Virus record (IMG/VR): IMGVR_UViG_3300021371_001392
Location: 1 to 20,045 of that record
Reading direction: 5' to 3' (one strand)
Source: a virus
DNA: 20,045 nt
Shown here: positions 9,105-17,572 of the stretch, piece by piece
Numbering within the stretch: the stretch's first letter is position 1
How the letters are laid out: each line of letters begins with the position of its first letter
Program-made: the position numbers and the translations under genes
The notes under the pieces: model-generated
What the model was told of the DNA's origin: nothing
Seen by the model: only the letters and a program-made list of their open reading frames with translations
Database searches by the model: none

Positions 9105-9314
9105 CTGCTTGGCGGCTCGGAGTAGACGCCACATAAAGTTATCTTTCATACTTGCTACTGATGTGTAGACGTTGTTAAGCTTTCTTACAACGTCTTCATC
9201 TATTTCTTTACTTTGTAGGACAACTTTAAGATCTTGTACTAAAGACTCGATTTTTTTTCTCTCGTCTTCGGAAACACCCATCAAGCTTTTTTTTATGTCT
9301 TGTGCAGTTTTCAT
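9090..9314 (-). CDS. Small helical protein coupled to UvsW-like helicase (74 aa)
   Basis: The family is not recognised. The ATG at 9314-9312 overlaps the helicase stop in an ATGA arrangement, so translation is probably coupled; no strong Shine-Dalgarno is present. The sequence is charged and predicted to be helical throughout (SEDERKKIESLVQDLKVVLQ, then IDEDVVRKLNNVYTSVASM), with an aromatic/basic C-terminus (FMWRLLRAAKQN). T4 also carries a small gene, uvsW.1, directly after uvsW. The position and size match, but I see no convincing sequence similarity, so a role as helicase partner is inference. The stop abuts the stop of the convergent virion gene with no bases between. Confidence 0.6.
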   Translation of the reverse strand: MKTAQDIKKSLMGVSEDERKKIESLVQDLKVVLQSKEIDEDVVRKLNNVYTSVASMKDNFMWRLLRAAKQNHML

Positions 9315-10681
9315 TTGATTATATTTACCGTGTGACCTTCTCTCTCATAGTGCCGCTTGCGTGCCTTGCTATGATCTCTGAGATAGTGTTCTTTATCCAT
9401 GAAATCGTAAACATATACGACCTCCTTAGACTCATGTTTACGTAAAGCTCGCCCAAGAGCTTGAATAGTGGCAATGTCACTTTTCATTCCGCGAGCGTTG
9501 ATTAGGTGAGTTATTTCTTGAATATTGATTCCAGTTTGGAGGATCTTAGTTCCAATGAGAACGCTACATCCTTCAAACTCTCTGAATCTAGAAATAGCTG
9601 AATACCTTTCTTTGATCGAATCAGCCCCTTCGAGAAACTCACACTGGCCTCCAATAAGTTCCTCCAGGGTTCTTCCGTGATCAAGTGATTTGGTAAGAAT
9701 AAGTATGCGTGCCGATTTGTTGTTTTCTCTAATTCCATTTACAATATCCTTTATGCTGTTATTTCGTCGTTTATTGCAAACGACATATTCCTCATAGACT
9801 CCTTGGAAATCTAAAGTATCATCGTGACCATTAGCTTCGTACTTCTGGTCTATTAGTTGTATAATTGGTTTGGTCAAGGTTCCGTCCTCAACAAGGTTCA
9901 GGGTAGTAACGGCTTCATTGATAGGCCCTGTAGCGCCCTCTAGGTTGTATAGGCGTAGATTGTCACTGGGAGGCGTAGCAGTAAGCCCGAAGCGATACAG
10001 GGCCTTAGGGAAGGACTGGATGGCTGCTAAGGTGTTTTTGCCGTTTGAAAACTCATGAGCTTCATCAATAAACAAGGCTTCTGCCTCTTCCAGATGCGTA
10101 TCTAGTATCTTTTCGATGCTCTGTACGGTACAAAGCATAATGTCGCCATAGATATAGCCATCTCCATAACAGAGACCTACGTTTTTTATTCCACAAGTTT
10201 CTGATAAAAAATCATAGGTTTGAGTCAGTAGTTGCTTTTGAGAGAACAAAACAACCATTTTACGTCCTTCAAGAGCCTTTATCATGCCCGCTAAGATGAG
10301 TGTTTTTCCACTTCCAGTAGGAGATTTGATGATACACCTCTGCATGGCGAGGCTAGTTTGGATCAAATCTTCTTGATAATCGTAATAAGTGAAGCCTTCA
10401 ATCTGATGATCTTTTAGATTTGTGTCTGTTATTACGGGTTTTTCTAGCTCTGGGGTGCAGTCAATCTTCTTTAAATCGTTTAGAAGTCTAGATAAAAGGC
10501 CAGTACGGAATACTCCTGCTTTAGTAATAAAGTGTTGTTTTCCGTCCCAGCGCCTTCTTTTATAAGCGGGGGAATACTCGGCCCCAGGAATTTTGAACGA
10601 ATAAAGGTCTATCAGAGCCTTCAATAATTCTGTATTGTCTGTCTTTATCAGACTTTTTTGTAGTCCTACTAAGATTTTCAT
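9311..10681 (-). CDS. uvsW: UvsW-like SF2 helicase (456 aa)
   Basis: This is a predicted ATP-dependent DNA/RNA helicase for branch migration, R-loop unwinding and the switch from origin- to recombination-dependent replication, by analogy with T4 UvsW. Residues 1-75 form the UvsW-type N-terminal substrate-binding domain (SFKIPGAEYSPAYKRRRWDGK at 28-48). The helicase core follows: Q-like motif YYDYQEDLI at 99-107, Walker A SPTGSGKT at 120-127, DEAH at 206-209, TATPP at 234-238, and motif VI QALGRALR at 407-414. All catalytic residues are intact. I chose the ATG at 10681-10679 rather than the in-frame ATG 57 bases upstream, because the shorter form starts like UvsW proteins and the longer one would run across the divergent promoter into the gp26-like gene. 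A TATTAT motif lies immediately upstream, giving a near-leaderless mRNA if used as the -10. Confidence 0.9.
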   Translation of the reverse strand: MKILVGLQKSLIKTDNTELLKALIDLYSFKIPGAEYSPAYKRRRWDGKQHFITKAGVFRTGLLSRLLNDLKKIDCTPELEKPVITDTNLKDHQIEGFTYYDYQEDLIQTSLAMQRCIIKSPTGSGKTLILAGMIKALEGRKMVVLFSQKQLLTQTYDFLSETCGIKNVGLCYGDGYIYGDIMLCTVQSIEKILDTHLEEAEALFIDEAHEFSNGKNTLAAIQSFPKALYRFGLTATPPSDNLRLYNLEGATGPINEAVTTLNLVEDGTLTKPIIQLIDQKYEANGHDDTLDFQGVYEEYVVCNKRRNNSIKDIVNGIRENNKSARILILTKSLDHGRTLEELIGGQCEFLEGADSIKERYSAISRFREFEGCSVLIGTKILQTGINIQEITHLINARGMKSDIATIQALGRALRKHESKEVVYVYDFMDKEHYLRDHSKARKRHYEREGHTVNIIK

Positions 10682-10705
10682 CACACTATAATAGTAAGAA
10701 GTATT
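10682..10705. promoter_or_regulatory. 24-base divergent promoter region (uvsW / gp26-like)
   Basis: This very short divergent gap contains ACACTATAATA at 10683-10693, identical to the element at 2641-2651. On the + strand TATAAT lies at 10687-10692, 13 bases before the ATG. On the - strand TATTAT ends six bases before the UvsW ATG, so a transcript starting at the normal distance from it would be leaderless. Any -35 or activator sites must lie inside the flanking coding sequences. Confidence 0.5.
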
Positions 10706-11443
10706 ATGAATACCCAACAACAAGATCAAGAAAAACAAGCAATAATTGCTGCTATCCTAGAAAAAGCTCCTTCTAACGTAGCTGTAGAAGTGGATCTCCC
10801 TTCAGAGAGCCGTGTATATCGCCTGGAAGATCCGGGTTCTCCTATAACTATCCGTCCTATGACATATGAGGATGAGAGGGCTATGGTCTCGCAAAGCAGT
10901 GATGATCCGATGAATATTGTCTTGTCCAGGTGTGTAGGGAATGTAAAAGTACATGATCTACTACTTATGGACAAAATGTTCTTAATTATGAAGCTCCGTG
11001 AGATATCTTTTGGGGATGATTATGAAGTTCTACTTATATGTCCTGATTGTGGGGAGGAAAATCCTGCTACCATAAAGCTATCTCAGTTACCAATTAACCC
11101 TGTTCCTGATGATTTTGTTGACCCCGTAACTATTTCTTTGAAAGGTATTGATAAAGAGTGTAAGGTTCGTTTACCCCGTGTAAGAGACACTAAGCACCTA
11201 TCAGGAGAAGAAGGATATTTTAATGATTTATGGAGGTTCGTAGAGTCTATTGATGGGCATACAGATAAAAGCATTATTCACCCAGTGGTAGAAGGTCTTC
11301 CTGTTATGGACCGCCGTGCTATTGTAAATGCTATGTTGGTAGATTATGGAATAGAAACTAAAGCAAAGTTGGATTGTAAAAAGTGCGGAGGGGTGAACGT
11401 TGTAGAACTGCCGATTGGAACAGGTTTTTTCGGCGGGAACTAG
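10706..11443 (+). CDS. Baseplate hub/assembly protein, T4 gp26-like, zinc-ribbon (245 aa, zero-frame product)
   Basis: It resembles the T4 baseplate protein family that includes gp26 (PF12322-type). Features are an N-terminal strand region (ITIRPMTYEDERAMVS, 47-62), a first zinc knuckle CPDC at 112-115, a SGEEGYFNDLWRF stretch at 166-178, and a second knuckle CKKC at 224-227. Together these give four Cys for a metal ribbon. The predicted role is assembly of the central baseplate hub, inferred from family and from downstream tape-measure, tube-cap and gp53 genes. The zero-frame product ends FFGGN at a TAG. A slippery T TTT TTC at the FF codons followed by a stem-loop strongly suggests that some ribosomes shift to -1 and add 58 residues. 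The ribosome binding site is weak (AAGAAG about four bases upstream). Confidence 0.7.
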   Translation: MNTQQQDQEKQAIIAAILEKAPSNVAVEVDLPSESRVYRLEDPGSPITIRPMTYEDERAMVSQSSDDPMNIVLSRCVGNVKVHDLLLMDKMFLIMKLREISFGDDYEVLLICPDCGEENPATIKLSQLPINPVPDDFVDPVTISLKGIDKECKVRLPRVRDTKHLSGEEGYFNDLWRFVESIDGHTDKSIIHPVVEGLPVMDRRAIVNAMLVDYGIETKAKLDCKKCGGVNVVELPIGTGFFGGN

Positions 11444-11476
11444 AAGCAGCAATAAATTTAGACAATCTGCTTCTAG
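11425..11476 (+). promoter_or_regulatory. Candidate programmed -1 ribosomal frameshift signal
   Basis: The slippery heptamer T TTT TTC is at 11425-11431, in the correct zero-frame register (codons TTT TTC, Phe-Phe). The spacer is eight bases (11432-11439). A perfect 10-bp stem CTAGAAGCAG (11440-11449) / CTGCTTCTAG (11467-11476) with a 17-base loop follows. The zero-frame TAG (11441-11443) lies inside the first arm of the stem. All three parts match the standard layout of bacterial and phage -1 frameshift sites. Confidence 0.75.
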
Positions 11477-11607
11477 AGGCATACATACTAGTAAAGCGTG
11501 CTAAGTTCACTTACTCGGATGTAAAGACAATGACACGCTTTGAAAGGATGATGTTCCTAAAGTTCCTAAAGGACGAATCGGAGAGAGAAGCCAATGCTAG
11601 TAAATAA
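11431..11607 (+). CDS. C-terminal extension of the gp26-like protein reached by -1 frameshift (58 aa; fusion 300 aa)
   Basis: After slippage at 11425-11431 the -1 frame runs RRELEAAINLDNLLLEAYIL and on to ANASK before TAA at 11605-11607. The fused chain is 242 + 58 = 300 residues. The extension is helical with a conserved-looking core (AKFTYSDVKTMTRFERMMFLKFL) typical of short phage tail-assembly segments. It has no plausible start of its own: a GTG at 11383 lies deep inside the zero-frame gene without a ribosome binding site, and the only Met codons after the slip are near the C-terminus. Its last 14 bases overlap the next gene, as expected for a translated frame in an operon. The alternative is a T-run miscall or natural mutation (T7 read as T6), which would give one continuous 300-residue protein. 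Confidence 0.7.
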   Translation, partial: RRELEAAINLDNLLLEAYILVKRAKFTYSDVKTMTRFERMMFLKFLKDESEREANASK

Positions 11608-12520
11608 TACAGAGTGTGTAGACAGAAATAATAGGCCCACAGTACTACAAAAAGTTGCCCTTCGTGCGCTCTTCGTAAACGATGGAGTATATTCAGACCC
11701 TAACGATATTTCAGGAGTAACCATCTTCCGTAGGCAGGATACTTATACTCCCAACGAAGTTATAAGTAAGAATCTAATTTCAAAAAACTTAGATACCGAC
11801 TTAGTGCAAATGCACTTTGATGGCCCTGCTATAGATGCAGCTAGTTACGATCCAGGAGATCCTCTAGCACTGTCTAGTATTTATAAGACAGGTACAGGTC
11901 AGTATGTCGTCATCTTAGACGGCACACAAGACCTCTCAGGAGTTTATGATTTTCATGGCGAAAATGTAACCATGAAGAATGGTGCTTCTGCTATTGGGGA
12001 ATACGTAGATGCTTGGACTGTACAACAGATAGCTAGTGGTCCGTATCACACGCTCCTACAGCAATTTGAGCTATATGAAGACACGTTCTTTGTTTCTACG
12101 GAGCCTATCCAGGTAAGAGCGGCTAACAAATTGGTTAATAAACGTGTCACGTTGGGGTCAGTAACTAATTTAAAAGTAGAGACTGAGCTTACAGTAACCA
12201 ATAGAACTATCGACGAAGCTACCAAAAACCTTTTCCGTCAATCAGCAATCACTAATGCCAGCGTTCAAATAGACAAAATAAACTCTAACGTTGGTGGGCT
12301 CCCCTGTCACGTTGAGGTCTCTGGGTATGCGGATACCTCGGCTCTGGTAGATATTACGTCTTGTAACACGATTATTCTAAACTTCGATACCAGAAACTTA
12401 GCCACACACCCGAATGTCGCAGACTTCGGTGGACTCGTCGGGGACTATAGGATTACTGTTAAGTATTCCTTACTTGACGAAGTTATTGTTACTCCTCCGT
12501 TCTACTTCACAGTGAGCTAA
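11594..12520 (+). CDS. Virion structural protein of unknown function (308 aa)
   Basis: The family is not recognised. The ATG has GGAGAGAGAAG at 11580-11590 just upstream and overlaps the frameshift extension by 14 bases. The protein is beta-rich with no signal peptide, membrane segment or coiled coil. The N-terminal part carries VLQKVALRALFVNDGVYSDP and a FRRQDTYTPNE segment; the middle has a SGVYDFHGENVTMKNG strand pair; the C-terminal 120 residues look like one or two immunoglobulin-like or jelly-roll domains (RVTLGSVTNLKVETELTVTN, then DYRITVKYSLLDEVIVTPPF). Placement between a hub protein and the tape-measure unit suggests a tail or baseplate component. Its 3' end overlaps the convergent primase gene by 14 bases. 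Confidence 0.55.
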   Translation: MLVNNTECVDRNNRPTVLQKVALRALFVNDGVYSDPNDISGVTIFRRQDTYTPNEVISKNLISKNLDTDLVQMHFDGPAIDAASYDPGDPLALSSIYKTGTGQYVVILDGTQDLSGVYDFHGENVTMKNGASAIGEYVDAWTVQQIASGPYHTLLQQFELYEDTFFVSTEPIQVRAANKLVNKRVTLGSVTNLKVETELTVTNRTIDEATKNLFRQSAITNASVQIDKINSNVGGLPCHVEVSGYADTSALVDITSCNTIILNFDTRNLATHPNVADFGGLVGDYRITVKYSLLDEVIVTPPFYFTVS

Positions 12521-14754: not shown

Positions 14755-15087
14755 ATGAACACTTTCTTTACAAAAATAAAACACTCCATAGGTAAATGGG
14801 CCATAGTACCTAGGTCTATGTCTACAGCCATCCCAGGAGACTACTTGGTGTTCAAGTATACTGATGGGAATAGTAGAGTTGTTTTGGTCACCCAGCCTAT
14901 CGTGAAACGTGCAGGAACGGGTAACTTACTCGTTACTGGGTTCAAGGTAGGATCTAGTAGCTACAGAATGGATGCTTTGGAATTATACAGTCTATATACC
15001 CAGGGAGAACTAGATGAAGGTGAGTATCGTACTTACAATCTAAAAAATATAAAAGGAATGATTATGAGGATGAGGATTAAAGACTAA
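14755..15087 (+). CDS. Small beta-rich hypothetical protein upstream of tape measure (110 aa)
   Basis: The family is not recognised. After a basic N-terminus (FFTKIKHSIGKWAI) the chain is beta-rich (GDYLVFKYTDGNSRVVLVTQ, then NLLVTGFKVGSSSYRMDALE), like a small SH3-type barrel, and ends in a basic MRMRIKD. The frame could start at a TTG two codons earlier, but ATG at 14755 is simpler; a further ATG at 14818 (MSTAIPGDY) is also possible and has a weak AGG upstream. Its TAA overlaps the next ATG (TAATG), so it is translationally coupled to the probable tape measure gene. That makes a tail-assembly role likely by context only. Confidence 0.55.
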   Translation: MNTFFTKIKHSIGKWAIVPRSMSTAIPGDYLVFKYTDGNSRVVLVTQPIVKRAGTGNLLVTGFKVGSSSYRMDALELYSLYTQGELDEGEYRTYNLKNIKGMIMRMRIKD

Positions 15088-16556
15088 TGCTACCCCTGAT
15101 AGCAGCGGCTGGAAAGCTGAACACGACAGGATCAAACCTAGTTCGTTCTACAAAAAGCCTTACTGATGCTTTTGATAAGTACCAGAAGGCGACCCTCTCT
15201 ATTGGTGTAGATTATCAGGTAGCTTCAGCAGCCTTATCTGGGTCGATGAAGGATCTGAAGGGATCTCTAGACGATAGATTCACCCCAGCCTTCCTCACTC
15301 TAAAAGCTGGCTTGGGTATGAATTCGGCCGGAGTAACCAAACTAGTTCATGAACAGAAGCTTACCAATATAGCCTTCCAGAACACTGCCGCTGCGCTTAA
15401 AGACGTACAAATAAGCACAGGTATGAGTATAGAGTCCTTGAATGCTTTAGCTTCTACCACCACGAAAGCAGCTAATAAGTATTTTATGTCTTCTGATCTC
15501 TTGGTAAAAGCTATAGGAGACCTGAAGCAAATAATGCCCAGCGTGATGTTATCAGGAAATACTAAGATGATCGAGGGTCTTAGGGATTGGATGGCTAGTC
15601 TTGGTCCTGGTATGCAGGAAACAGCTACCAGGATAGCTAACGAGTTCCTTTCTCCTGAGTATGAAAAAATGGGGCTTTTGAGTCAGCTAAACATTGAGCA
15701 TTTGCGCGAACAGATTTTTGTGTCTAAAGATGCAAAAACTACAGCGAATATAATGAACAAAGTGGTCATGCAGGGTATGAAGGCCATGAATAGTTTTGCT
15801 GACACTCAGCAAATGAGCTTCCGTGACATACAGTCTTTTTCTAAGGTTTATGGAAAACTTGGAACCGATATAGTCGTAGCAGCTAATCAGCTAGGAAAAG
15901 CTGCTTCTAGACGAGAGGATAGCTTAGCAGAAGCGGGCAGAGATTTCGGTACGGCTATGAATACTCTGAAGCAACCTTTTGAAGACCTTTTTATGACTAG
16001 ACTAATGCCTTCTTTGTTGAATCTCACTCAAAGCGAGACGTTCAATCTTGATCACATAGTAGACAAGGTAGAAAAGGTTGCTATTATTGTGGGTGGACTT
16101 TTAGATCCAAAACAATTTGCAATTGCTATGGATTATTTAAAGTCACAGGTTGCTTTGTTGGGAACAGAATTTAAATTAGCAGCTTTTGGGGATCTTGCAT
16201 TTTTTGGTCCTGATGTAAAGGCGACTAGAGCAAAAATAGATTCACTTGATAAGACCGCGCACGAAGCAATGGGAAAACTGTTTGATGCTAACGAAGAGCG
16301 TTTAGCCGAGTTGGCAAAACAAACAGGCATTCTAGAAAATATAGATGAAGGAATTAACAAATCTGATATTGATACTGCTGGAGCAGGGTATCTAAACATG
16401 AGTCAGAGATTGATAACAGATCAAATTATGAGTGTTTTAGATCCTACAGGAGGAGGGGATCCTAACGCTGAGGTAGTATTTCATCTAAAAATAATGCAGG
16501 AAGCTTTATTAAAAGATAAACAAGGAACTAGCGCAGCAGTTAAGTTTGGAGACTAA
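15087..16556 (+). CDS. Probable tape measure protein (489 aa)
   Basis: The chain is Ala-, Ser-, Met- and Lys-rich, largely helical, and lacks enzyme motifs. It has long amphipathic stretches typical of tail tape measures (GKLNTTGSNLVRSTKSLTDA near the N-terminus; AANQLGKAASRREDSLAEAG in the middle) and a hydrophobic segment VAIIVGGLLDP near residues 331-341. It is followed by tube-cap-like and gp53-like genes, the expected place for a gp29-type tape measure. If tail length scales as in other phages (about 0.15 nm per residue), the tail would be roughly 70-80 nm; this is inference. It could instead be another hub-interior protein. The start overlaps the preceding stop by one base. Confidence 0.6.
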   Translation: MLPLIAAAGKLNTTGSNLVRSTKSLTDAFDKYQKATLSIGVDYQVASAALSGSMKDLKGSLDDRFTPAFLTLKAGLGMNSAGVTKLVHEQKLTNIAFQNTAAALKDVQISTGMSIESLNALASTTTKAANKYFMSSDLLVKAIGDLKQIMPSVMLSGNTKMIEGLRDWMASLGPGMQETATRIANEFLSPEYEKMGLLSQLNIEHLREQIFVSKDAKTTANIMNKVVMQGMKAMNSFADTQQMSFRDIQSFSKVYGKLGTDIVVAANQLGKAASRREDSLAEAGRDFGTAMNTLKQPFEDLFMTRLMPSLLNLTQSETFNLDHIVDKVEKVAIIVGGLLDPKQFAIAMDYLKSQVALLGTEFKLAAFGDLAFFGPDVKATRAKIDSLDKTAHEAMGKLFDANEERLAELAKQTGILENIDEGINKSDIDTAGAGYLNMSQRLITDQIMSVLDPTGGGDPNAEVVFHLKIMQEALLKDKQGTSAAVKFGD

Positions 16557-16558
16557 TT

Positions 16559-17572
16559 ATGAGCAGCAATAGACACATAGTAGACAGAGCATTACCGAGC
16601 CGATCTATGCTAAAATTTTACTTCCCTACTCCGGGGGAGAGTAAGATTGTAGTAGACCTACCCTTCTTCCAAAACATAAAGATTTCTGAAAGCAAACGTG
16701 CTCGATACGATACGCACTCTTTACTTTCTAGAAGCAGTAACCTGTATACTTATCTGGGAGCAGAATCAAGGAGGTTTAAACTGGATTTCTCTATGTCTTT
16801 ACCTCATATGGAGGAGGAGCATCCTGGATTGAATTTCGATCAGTATATCAATGCTCCTGTAGTGGGTAAGAATACAGAAGAGGAGAAGCGTAGATTCTTT
16901 GAGCCCAGTATACCTCCTACTAGCCGTAAGGGTACAGCATTCAAGCACGGCTTAGATTACACCGCCAACCTAGCCCGTGAGTCTGCGCGTCAGGTAGTAC
17001 AATCTGATTGGTTCAAGAATAGTATTCCTCCTGAAGACCGCCAAGTATTTTACAGCACTTATAATTTAGAAGATCAGGAAGATCGAAGTGGCCCTGATAT
17101 TGTATCACCTCTCAAATCCGCTGTAGGAGACTTTCTTCCTATTCCATCCTCTGACCTATCCCAAGCCCTCCAATTCTCTTACAACGTAGATGAGCGCACT
17201 ATGAAGCGTCTCAAGACTGTAGACATGATTGTGTATTGGGTAAACATTGTTAGAGCCTCTATGTTGAATAATGCTTTAGACACTTCCCTTGGACCTCCTA
17301 TTGTCCGTATACGTCACGGTGTCATGTATCAGGATGTGGCTTGTATTTGTACCGACTACAGCATAAAACACGATGAGAGTGCTGGGCACGACATCCGCAC
17401 ATTACTTCCTCGTATGTTGAACGTAAGCATGACTTTAGAAGAAGTTCGAGCAGGAGACTTCGGTGAGTTCGATCCTAATGATCAAGTAAAAAAAGATAAC
17501 CTAGCGGGATGGGAGAGCGTCCTAATGACTGATTGGAATAGCACTGACCCAGGATCAGCGAACTTACGATGA
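16559..17572 (+). CDS. Baseplate tail-tube-associated protein, gp48/gp54-like (337 aa)
   Basis: It resembles proteins that cap the baseplate hub and start tail-tube polymerisation. Diagnostic segments are VVDLPFFQNIKISESKRARY at 31-50, SRSSNLYTYLGAESRRFKLD at 57-76 followed by FSMSLPHM, a central variable linker (90-200), and a C-terminal domain with VDMIVYWVNIVRASMLNN, GPPIVRIRHGVMYQDVACIC and a closing MLNVSMTLEEVRAGDFGEF. The C-terminal domain suggests a tube-like beta fold. Assignment to gp48 versus gp54 cannot be made by eye. A Shine-Dalgarno GGAG lies about nine bases before the ATG, and only two bases separate it from the tape-measure stop. It overlaps the gp53-like gene by ATGA. Confidence 0.6.
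   Translation: MSSNRHIVDRALPSRSMLKFYFPTPGESKIVVDLPFFQNIKISESKRARYDTHSLLSRSSNLYTYLGAESRRFKLDFSMSLPHMEEEHPGLNFDQYINAPVVGKNTEEEKRRFFEPSIPPTSRKGTAFKHGLDYTANLARESARQVVQSDWFKNSIPPEDRQVFYSTYNLEDQEDRSGPDIVSPLKSAVGDFLPIPSSDLSQALQFSYNVDERTMKRLKTVDMIVYWVNIVRASMLNNALDTSLGPPIVRIRHGVMYQDVACICTDYSIKHDESAGHDIRTLLPRMLNVSMTLEEVRAGDFGEFDPNDQVKKDNLAGWESVLMTDWNSTDPGSANLR

Follow-up and report, generated by a model that had tools for sequence, protein, structure and literature searches.

A gp26-like gene of an uncultured virus carries a conserved -1 frameshift signal and very probably encodes short and long forms of a tail assembly chaperone

We studied a stretch of 20,045 nt of viral DNA (IMG/VR record IMGVR_UViG_3300021371_001392, positions 1 to 20,045), referred to as the window. 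The locus of interest holds a gp26-like open reading frame (ORF), a candidate -1 frameshift signal at its end, and a second ORF in the -1 frame that reaches into the next gene. The respective features, with TAC denoting the proposed tail assembly chaperone, are the following.

10706..11443, + strand: gp26-like ORF, predicted short form TAC-N, 245 aa (PF12322, phrog_150, AF2 model)
11425..11431, + strand: slippery heptamer T TTT TTC, in register (sequence and relatives' loci)
11432..11439, + strand: spacer, 8 nt
11440..11449, + strand: 5' arm of the stem, holding the zero-frame stop (fold, shuffles, relatives' pairing)
11441..11443, + strand: zero-frame stop TAG (same codon position in 79/79 relatives)
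11467..11476, + strand: 3' arm of the stem (fold, shuffles, relatives' pairing)
11425..11607, + strand: -1 extension, predicted C-terminal domain of the long form TAC-NC, 300 aa (homologous -1 peptides, third-position bias)
11594..12520, + strand: next gene, 308 aa, without assigned function (ATG at 11594)

The zero-frame ORF ends with GGT TTT TTC GGC GGG AAC TAG, as read directly from the sequence. The -1 ORF extends 58 codons past the FF pair to a stop at 11605-11607 (242 + 58 = 300 aa) and shares its last 14 bases with the next ORF. A first-pass annotation had described an in-register heptamer, an eight-base spacer and a perfect 10-bp stem that takes in the zero-frame stop, all of which are present exactly as claimed; its length for the -1 frame and its overlap are correct to the base. 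A gene similar to the 308-aa ORF is also found downstream in two relatives (L002, L003). On the other side, a UvsW-like helicase gene (9311-10738, - strand) diverges from the gp26-like gene, and its listed TTG start overlaps the start of the latter.

Taken alone, the 58 open codons of the -1 frame are weak evidence, as such a stretch is expected by chance with P about 0.02. We therefore turn to homologues, whose comparison settles the matter at the level of sequence and excludes a chance origin of the signal. A profile search with the window's -1 peptide alone yielded 80 viral loci, 79 of them usable (one begins too near a contig end). In all 79, some of which are near-duplicates, the zero frame is open upstream, a heptamer is found in register (T TTT TTC in 56, T TTT TTT in 23) and the zero-frame stop sits at the identical codon. 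Since the query contains only the -1 frame, this survey comes close to a blind test, with the limit that one of the two search patterns includes the FF of the slip site. The homologue alignment that the first-pass annotation had proposed is thus favourable to its claim, i.e., upstream frame, heptamer and stop position are kept throughout.

Similar results are observed for the cyanophage-type loci that a search with S-SM2 gp26 returned. Here, 79/80 show T TTT TTC together with one fixed stop position, while the remaining locus ends before the site; a complete -1 ORF of 61-68 codons is present in 78. The same arrangement occurs in Ochrobactrum phage ORM_20, S-SM2, S-SKS1, C48C1, Atu_ph07, XacN1 and uncultured jumbo phages, and two distant relatives (38-40% identity) share both the layout and a homologous -1 peptide. 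Past the heptamer, substitutions are most frequent at the third position of the -1 codons (3, 3, 9 and 30, 23, 42 for the three positions), and the only invariant residue among 18 aligned gp26-family proteins is an F of the slippery site. That is, the aligned sequences show the signal, the two frames and the conservation of both. Neither a profile built from three gp26 sequences nor a search with L002 added further loci, and a scan of genome contigs found no relatives.

One could ask whether the run is really T7, such that a sequencing or assembly error splits one continuous 300-aa frame, given that homopolymer errors are generally common. Yet T6 and the stem are identical in a near-identical IMG/VR contig that was assembled separately (L001; 6 mismatches in 4356 bases, none within the gp26-like gene), more than 150 loci share the frame offset as well as the conserved zero-frame stop, and among the loci compared we have seen no homologue with both parts in one unbroken frame. 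This reading, already refuted by the homologues, is rejected, its probability being practically negligible.

Next, we evaluated the stem, which consists of 10 Watson-Crick pairs around a 17-nt loop. The distance of 8 nt between slip site and downstream structure lies inside the 5-9 nt range for -1 frameshift stimulators. A perfect 10-bp stem at that position arose in 1/5000 dinucleotide shuffles and is found in 0.07% of the window's stretches of the same size. With regard to total folding energy, the window is unremarkable (z -1.8 and z -1.4 in two computations). Since the arms of the stem overlap conserved codons, we also applied a null model based on synonymous recoding of the -1 frame. Here, the window reaches z -3.0, and the 67 distinct loci, two controls among them, are on average more stable than the null (mean z -1.2).

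RNAalifold reported no consensus stem for all 60 aligned sequences, in which T TTT TTC and T TTT TTT loci are mixed; subsequently, we counted the window's predefined stem directly. In the window's register, 81% of the cells are paired compared to 42-56% in slid registers, and 19 cells are changed on both sides compared to 7.7 expected, a value matched in none of 500 shuffles. Within the T TTT TTC subgroup (37 distinct sequences) pairing rises to 88%, and 32/37 retain at least 8 of the 10 pairs, while the T TTT TTT subgroup shows a lower pairing of 67%. Given this difference and the missing RNAalifold consensus, the stem is conserved in the window's subgroup and not universal. Within that subgroup it is, judging from the pairing statistics, retained through compensatory changes. 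Co-variation of heptamer, spacer and stem, which had been suggested as a check, is therefore favourable as well: the heptamer is kept throughout and the stem covaries within the window's subgroup.

These features also bear on whether the shift might take place during transcription, i.e., by RNA polymerase slipping on the T run instead of the ribosome. Runs of at least seven T, eight in some, are present in 23/79 relatives and would suit such slippage. Most loci have just six T, however, and show the hallmarks of ribosomal slippage, namely an X XXY YYZ phase in register, a spacer and a stem, such that we regard a transcriptional origin as very improbable.

Alternatively, the gp26-like ORF and the -1 ORF could be separate genes, the second one being translated via coupled re-initiation or from an internal start. 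Annotators have indeed split the two (as SSM2_011 in S-SM2, as another ORF in S-SKS1 and as a gene of its own in C48C1), and 76/78 cyanophage -1 ORFs hold a Met within their first 16 codons. For the window, the earlier statement that the -1 frame has no start of its own stands in part: we found no possible start from the slip site up to the conserved core, while the -1 frame has a GTG at 11383, 5' of the slip site, that lacks a convincing Shine-Dalgarno sequence. Against two genes, no ATG, GTG or TTG able to start the -1 ORF before the conserved core exists in 47/67 distinct loci. Furthermore, separate translation leaves both the invariant heptamer and the stop-spanning stem unexplained, and in T4 gp51 a domain of this kind follows a gp26 domain within one protein. 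We thus consider the two-gene reading very improbable and keep the -1 ribosomal frameshift as the preferred explanation.

To name the gene, we compared its two parts with known families. The 245-aa ORF matches PF12322 (E=2.4e-17) and phrog_150 'baseplate hub' (E=6.8e-21), and its AF2 model (pLDDT 84) matches the SP-15 baseplate hub subunit with a TM score of 0.77. No PDB relative was found by sequence, and a PDB fold search gave nothing meaningful. Such a result would be expected of a protein absent from virions, although it does not prove this absence. T4 gp51 matches PF12322 with 4e-52 over residues 1-201, followed by about 48 further residues. On phrog_150, T4 gp26 covers 14-235 and T4 gp51 13-280, while S-SM2 gp26 covers 5-232 and the S-SM2 -1 ORF 231-281. 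The latter also matches phrog_634 'baseplate hub assembly catalyst' with E=3e-29, and a profile built from the -1 domains of cyanophage-type loci matches the C-terminus of T4 gp51 with 89%. These profile comparisons show homology of the N-terminal part to both T4 gp26 and gp51, and of the cyanophage C-terminal part to gp51.

For the window's own -1 extension the match to the gp51 family phrog_634 is weak (E=0.07). In hhalign comparisons, its C-terminal domain matches the cyanophage domain with 48% (E=1.8e-4) and T4 gp51 alone with a probability of 1.5%. Given the weak direct match, the link to gp51 rests on position, the intermediate families and a motif common to the C-terminal domains, [FY][ST]xx[DE][VI]xxM...ER. 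From position, motif and the weak scores we infer that the window's C-terminal part is homologous to gp51, too.

T4 gp26 and gp51 are paralogues encoded by separate, divergent genes (L010:3803-4429 and L010:4480-5229). Since gp51 is composed of a gp26-like domain and the same kind of C-terminal domain, it corresponds to the frameshift product, while gp26 resembles the short form. That is, T4 uses two genes, 26 and 51, for what the window phage would make from one, and in T4 the FF pair is coded TTC TTT, which is not slippery. A 2022 study by Vladimirov et al. is said to describe frameshifting in several T4-like groups and genes 26 and 51 as separate in T4. We prefer the name tail assembly chaperone because of the -1 extension, which is similar to the gp51 family; T4 gp51 itself consists of a gp26 domain followed by an extension of this kind. 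The first-pass label of a structural zinc-ribbon baseplate protein is therefore replaced by TAC-N/TAC-NC, which fits better.

Given these observations, we conclude with a probability of about 0.93 that the gene is a tail assembly chaperone predicted to make a short and a long form by -1 ribosomal frameshifting, with TAC-NC carrying a gp51-like C-terminal domain. Slippage at the site, the product ratio and the roles of both forms are what we infer for the following mechanism. The majority of ribosomes would terminate at 11441 and yield TAC-N (245 aa). A minority would shift back by one base on T TTT TTC, assisted by the downstream stem-loop, and yield TAC-NC (300 aa), i.e., TAC-N plus the gp51-like domain. 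In lambda, gpG covers the tape measure, the tube protein is brought in by gpGT and both leave (PMC5009743). By analogy, the N-terminal part would cover the tape measure protein, tail-tube subunits would be recruited through the rare C-terminal domain, and both forms would depart before tail completion; such a lambda-like division of labour between the predicted forms is most likely. The comparison of loci strongly supports both the programmed -1 frameshift with predicted products of 245 and 300 aa and the predicted chaperone-like dual role, as put forward by the first-pass annotation.

The arrangement parallels lambda G/GT and P2 E/E', where a -1 shift near the end of the short form likewise provides a short and a long chaperone (PMC5009743). 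The window differs in that its N-terminal part is a gp26 domain with two CxxC pairs and the adjoining gene is not a recognised tape measure gene. In the TAC of Vandenendeviridae and Andersonviridae, a different phage group, it is the slip signal that is alike, i.e., an invariant GTTTTT close to the TAC-N end at which a -1 shift takes place (PMC12846349). A 2016 review considers G/GT frameshifting widely conserved with the exception of T4 (PMC5009743). According to PMC12846349 and PMC10885494, TAC genes of T4-like phages were identified in 2022 by Vladimirov, Gautam and Davidson (Virology 566:9-15). Poly-T -1 signals in T4-like TAC-N genes are credited to the same work in a 2025 paper (PMC12846349). 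The first-pass view of a so far undescribed frameshift does not hold in light of these citing papers; as far as they report the 2022 work, the window's gene is a further example of a known device. It shares with those chaperones the TAC-N gene and the poly-T -1 signal; a possible difference is that its group is marine and uncultured and keeps a conserved stem.

With regard to gene order, the homologues in SP-15, LIS04, LuckySocke and Mel-JY01 directly follow the tail tube gene and precede a long ORF in the place of the tape measure, annotated as such in LIS04. This is, by annotation in LIS04 and probably in the other three, the position of lambda G/GT between tail tube and tape measure. In the window, no tape measure gene was identified adjoining the gp26-like gene, its neighbour being the 308-aa ORF. 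Further downstream, two ORFs (489 aa and 337 aa; 15087-17572) with no significant match to any family lie just before a gp53-like gene. By position, it is possible that they encode the tape measure and tube-cap proteins; sequence searches with both ORFs found neither a tape measure nor a tube protein.

A different frame relation is observed in seven relatives (SP-15, LIS04, SagM-GXN1, Mel-JY01, LuckySocke, Slickus01 and LR756508; ends of the gp26-like ORFs in L005, L006, L008, L102, L103, L106 and L107), where the C-terminal ORF lies in the +1 (equivalently -2) frame. No one motif is shared: NCC CGA ends three of the genes, T7 is found in Mel-JY01 and TTT C in LuckySocke. This frame may represent a second solution within the gp26/gp51 family. 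None of these loci is annotated as a joined gene.

In cyanophage-type records, the C-terminal half is given as a separate small gene (L009:3705-3878, L105:3226-3330, L109:3196-3375), and in C48C1 it is labelled 'baseplate hub assembly catalyst'. Our results correct an annotation habit, as the annotated relatives examined omit the C-terminal half or split it off as a small gene and never join both parts. Furthermore, the more than 150 loci provide a dense comparative set, including a testable stem, for chaperone frameshifting in T4-like phages. Tentatively, and as a possibility we favour less than its opposite, the orthologous gp26/gp51 family may obtain its long chaperone in three ways, i.e., by a -1 shift (window, cyanophages, several jumbo phages), by a +1/-2 shift (seven relatives) and by duplication (T4), where the frame switch and the covarying stem of the marine group are maybe undescribed. 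For T4 itself, the comparison shows genes 26 and 51 to match the two predicted products of a single gene elsewhere.
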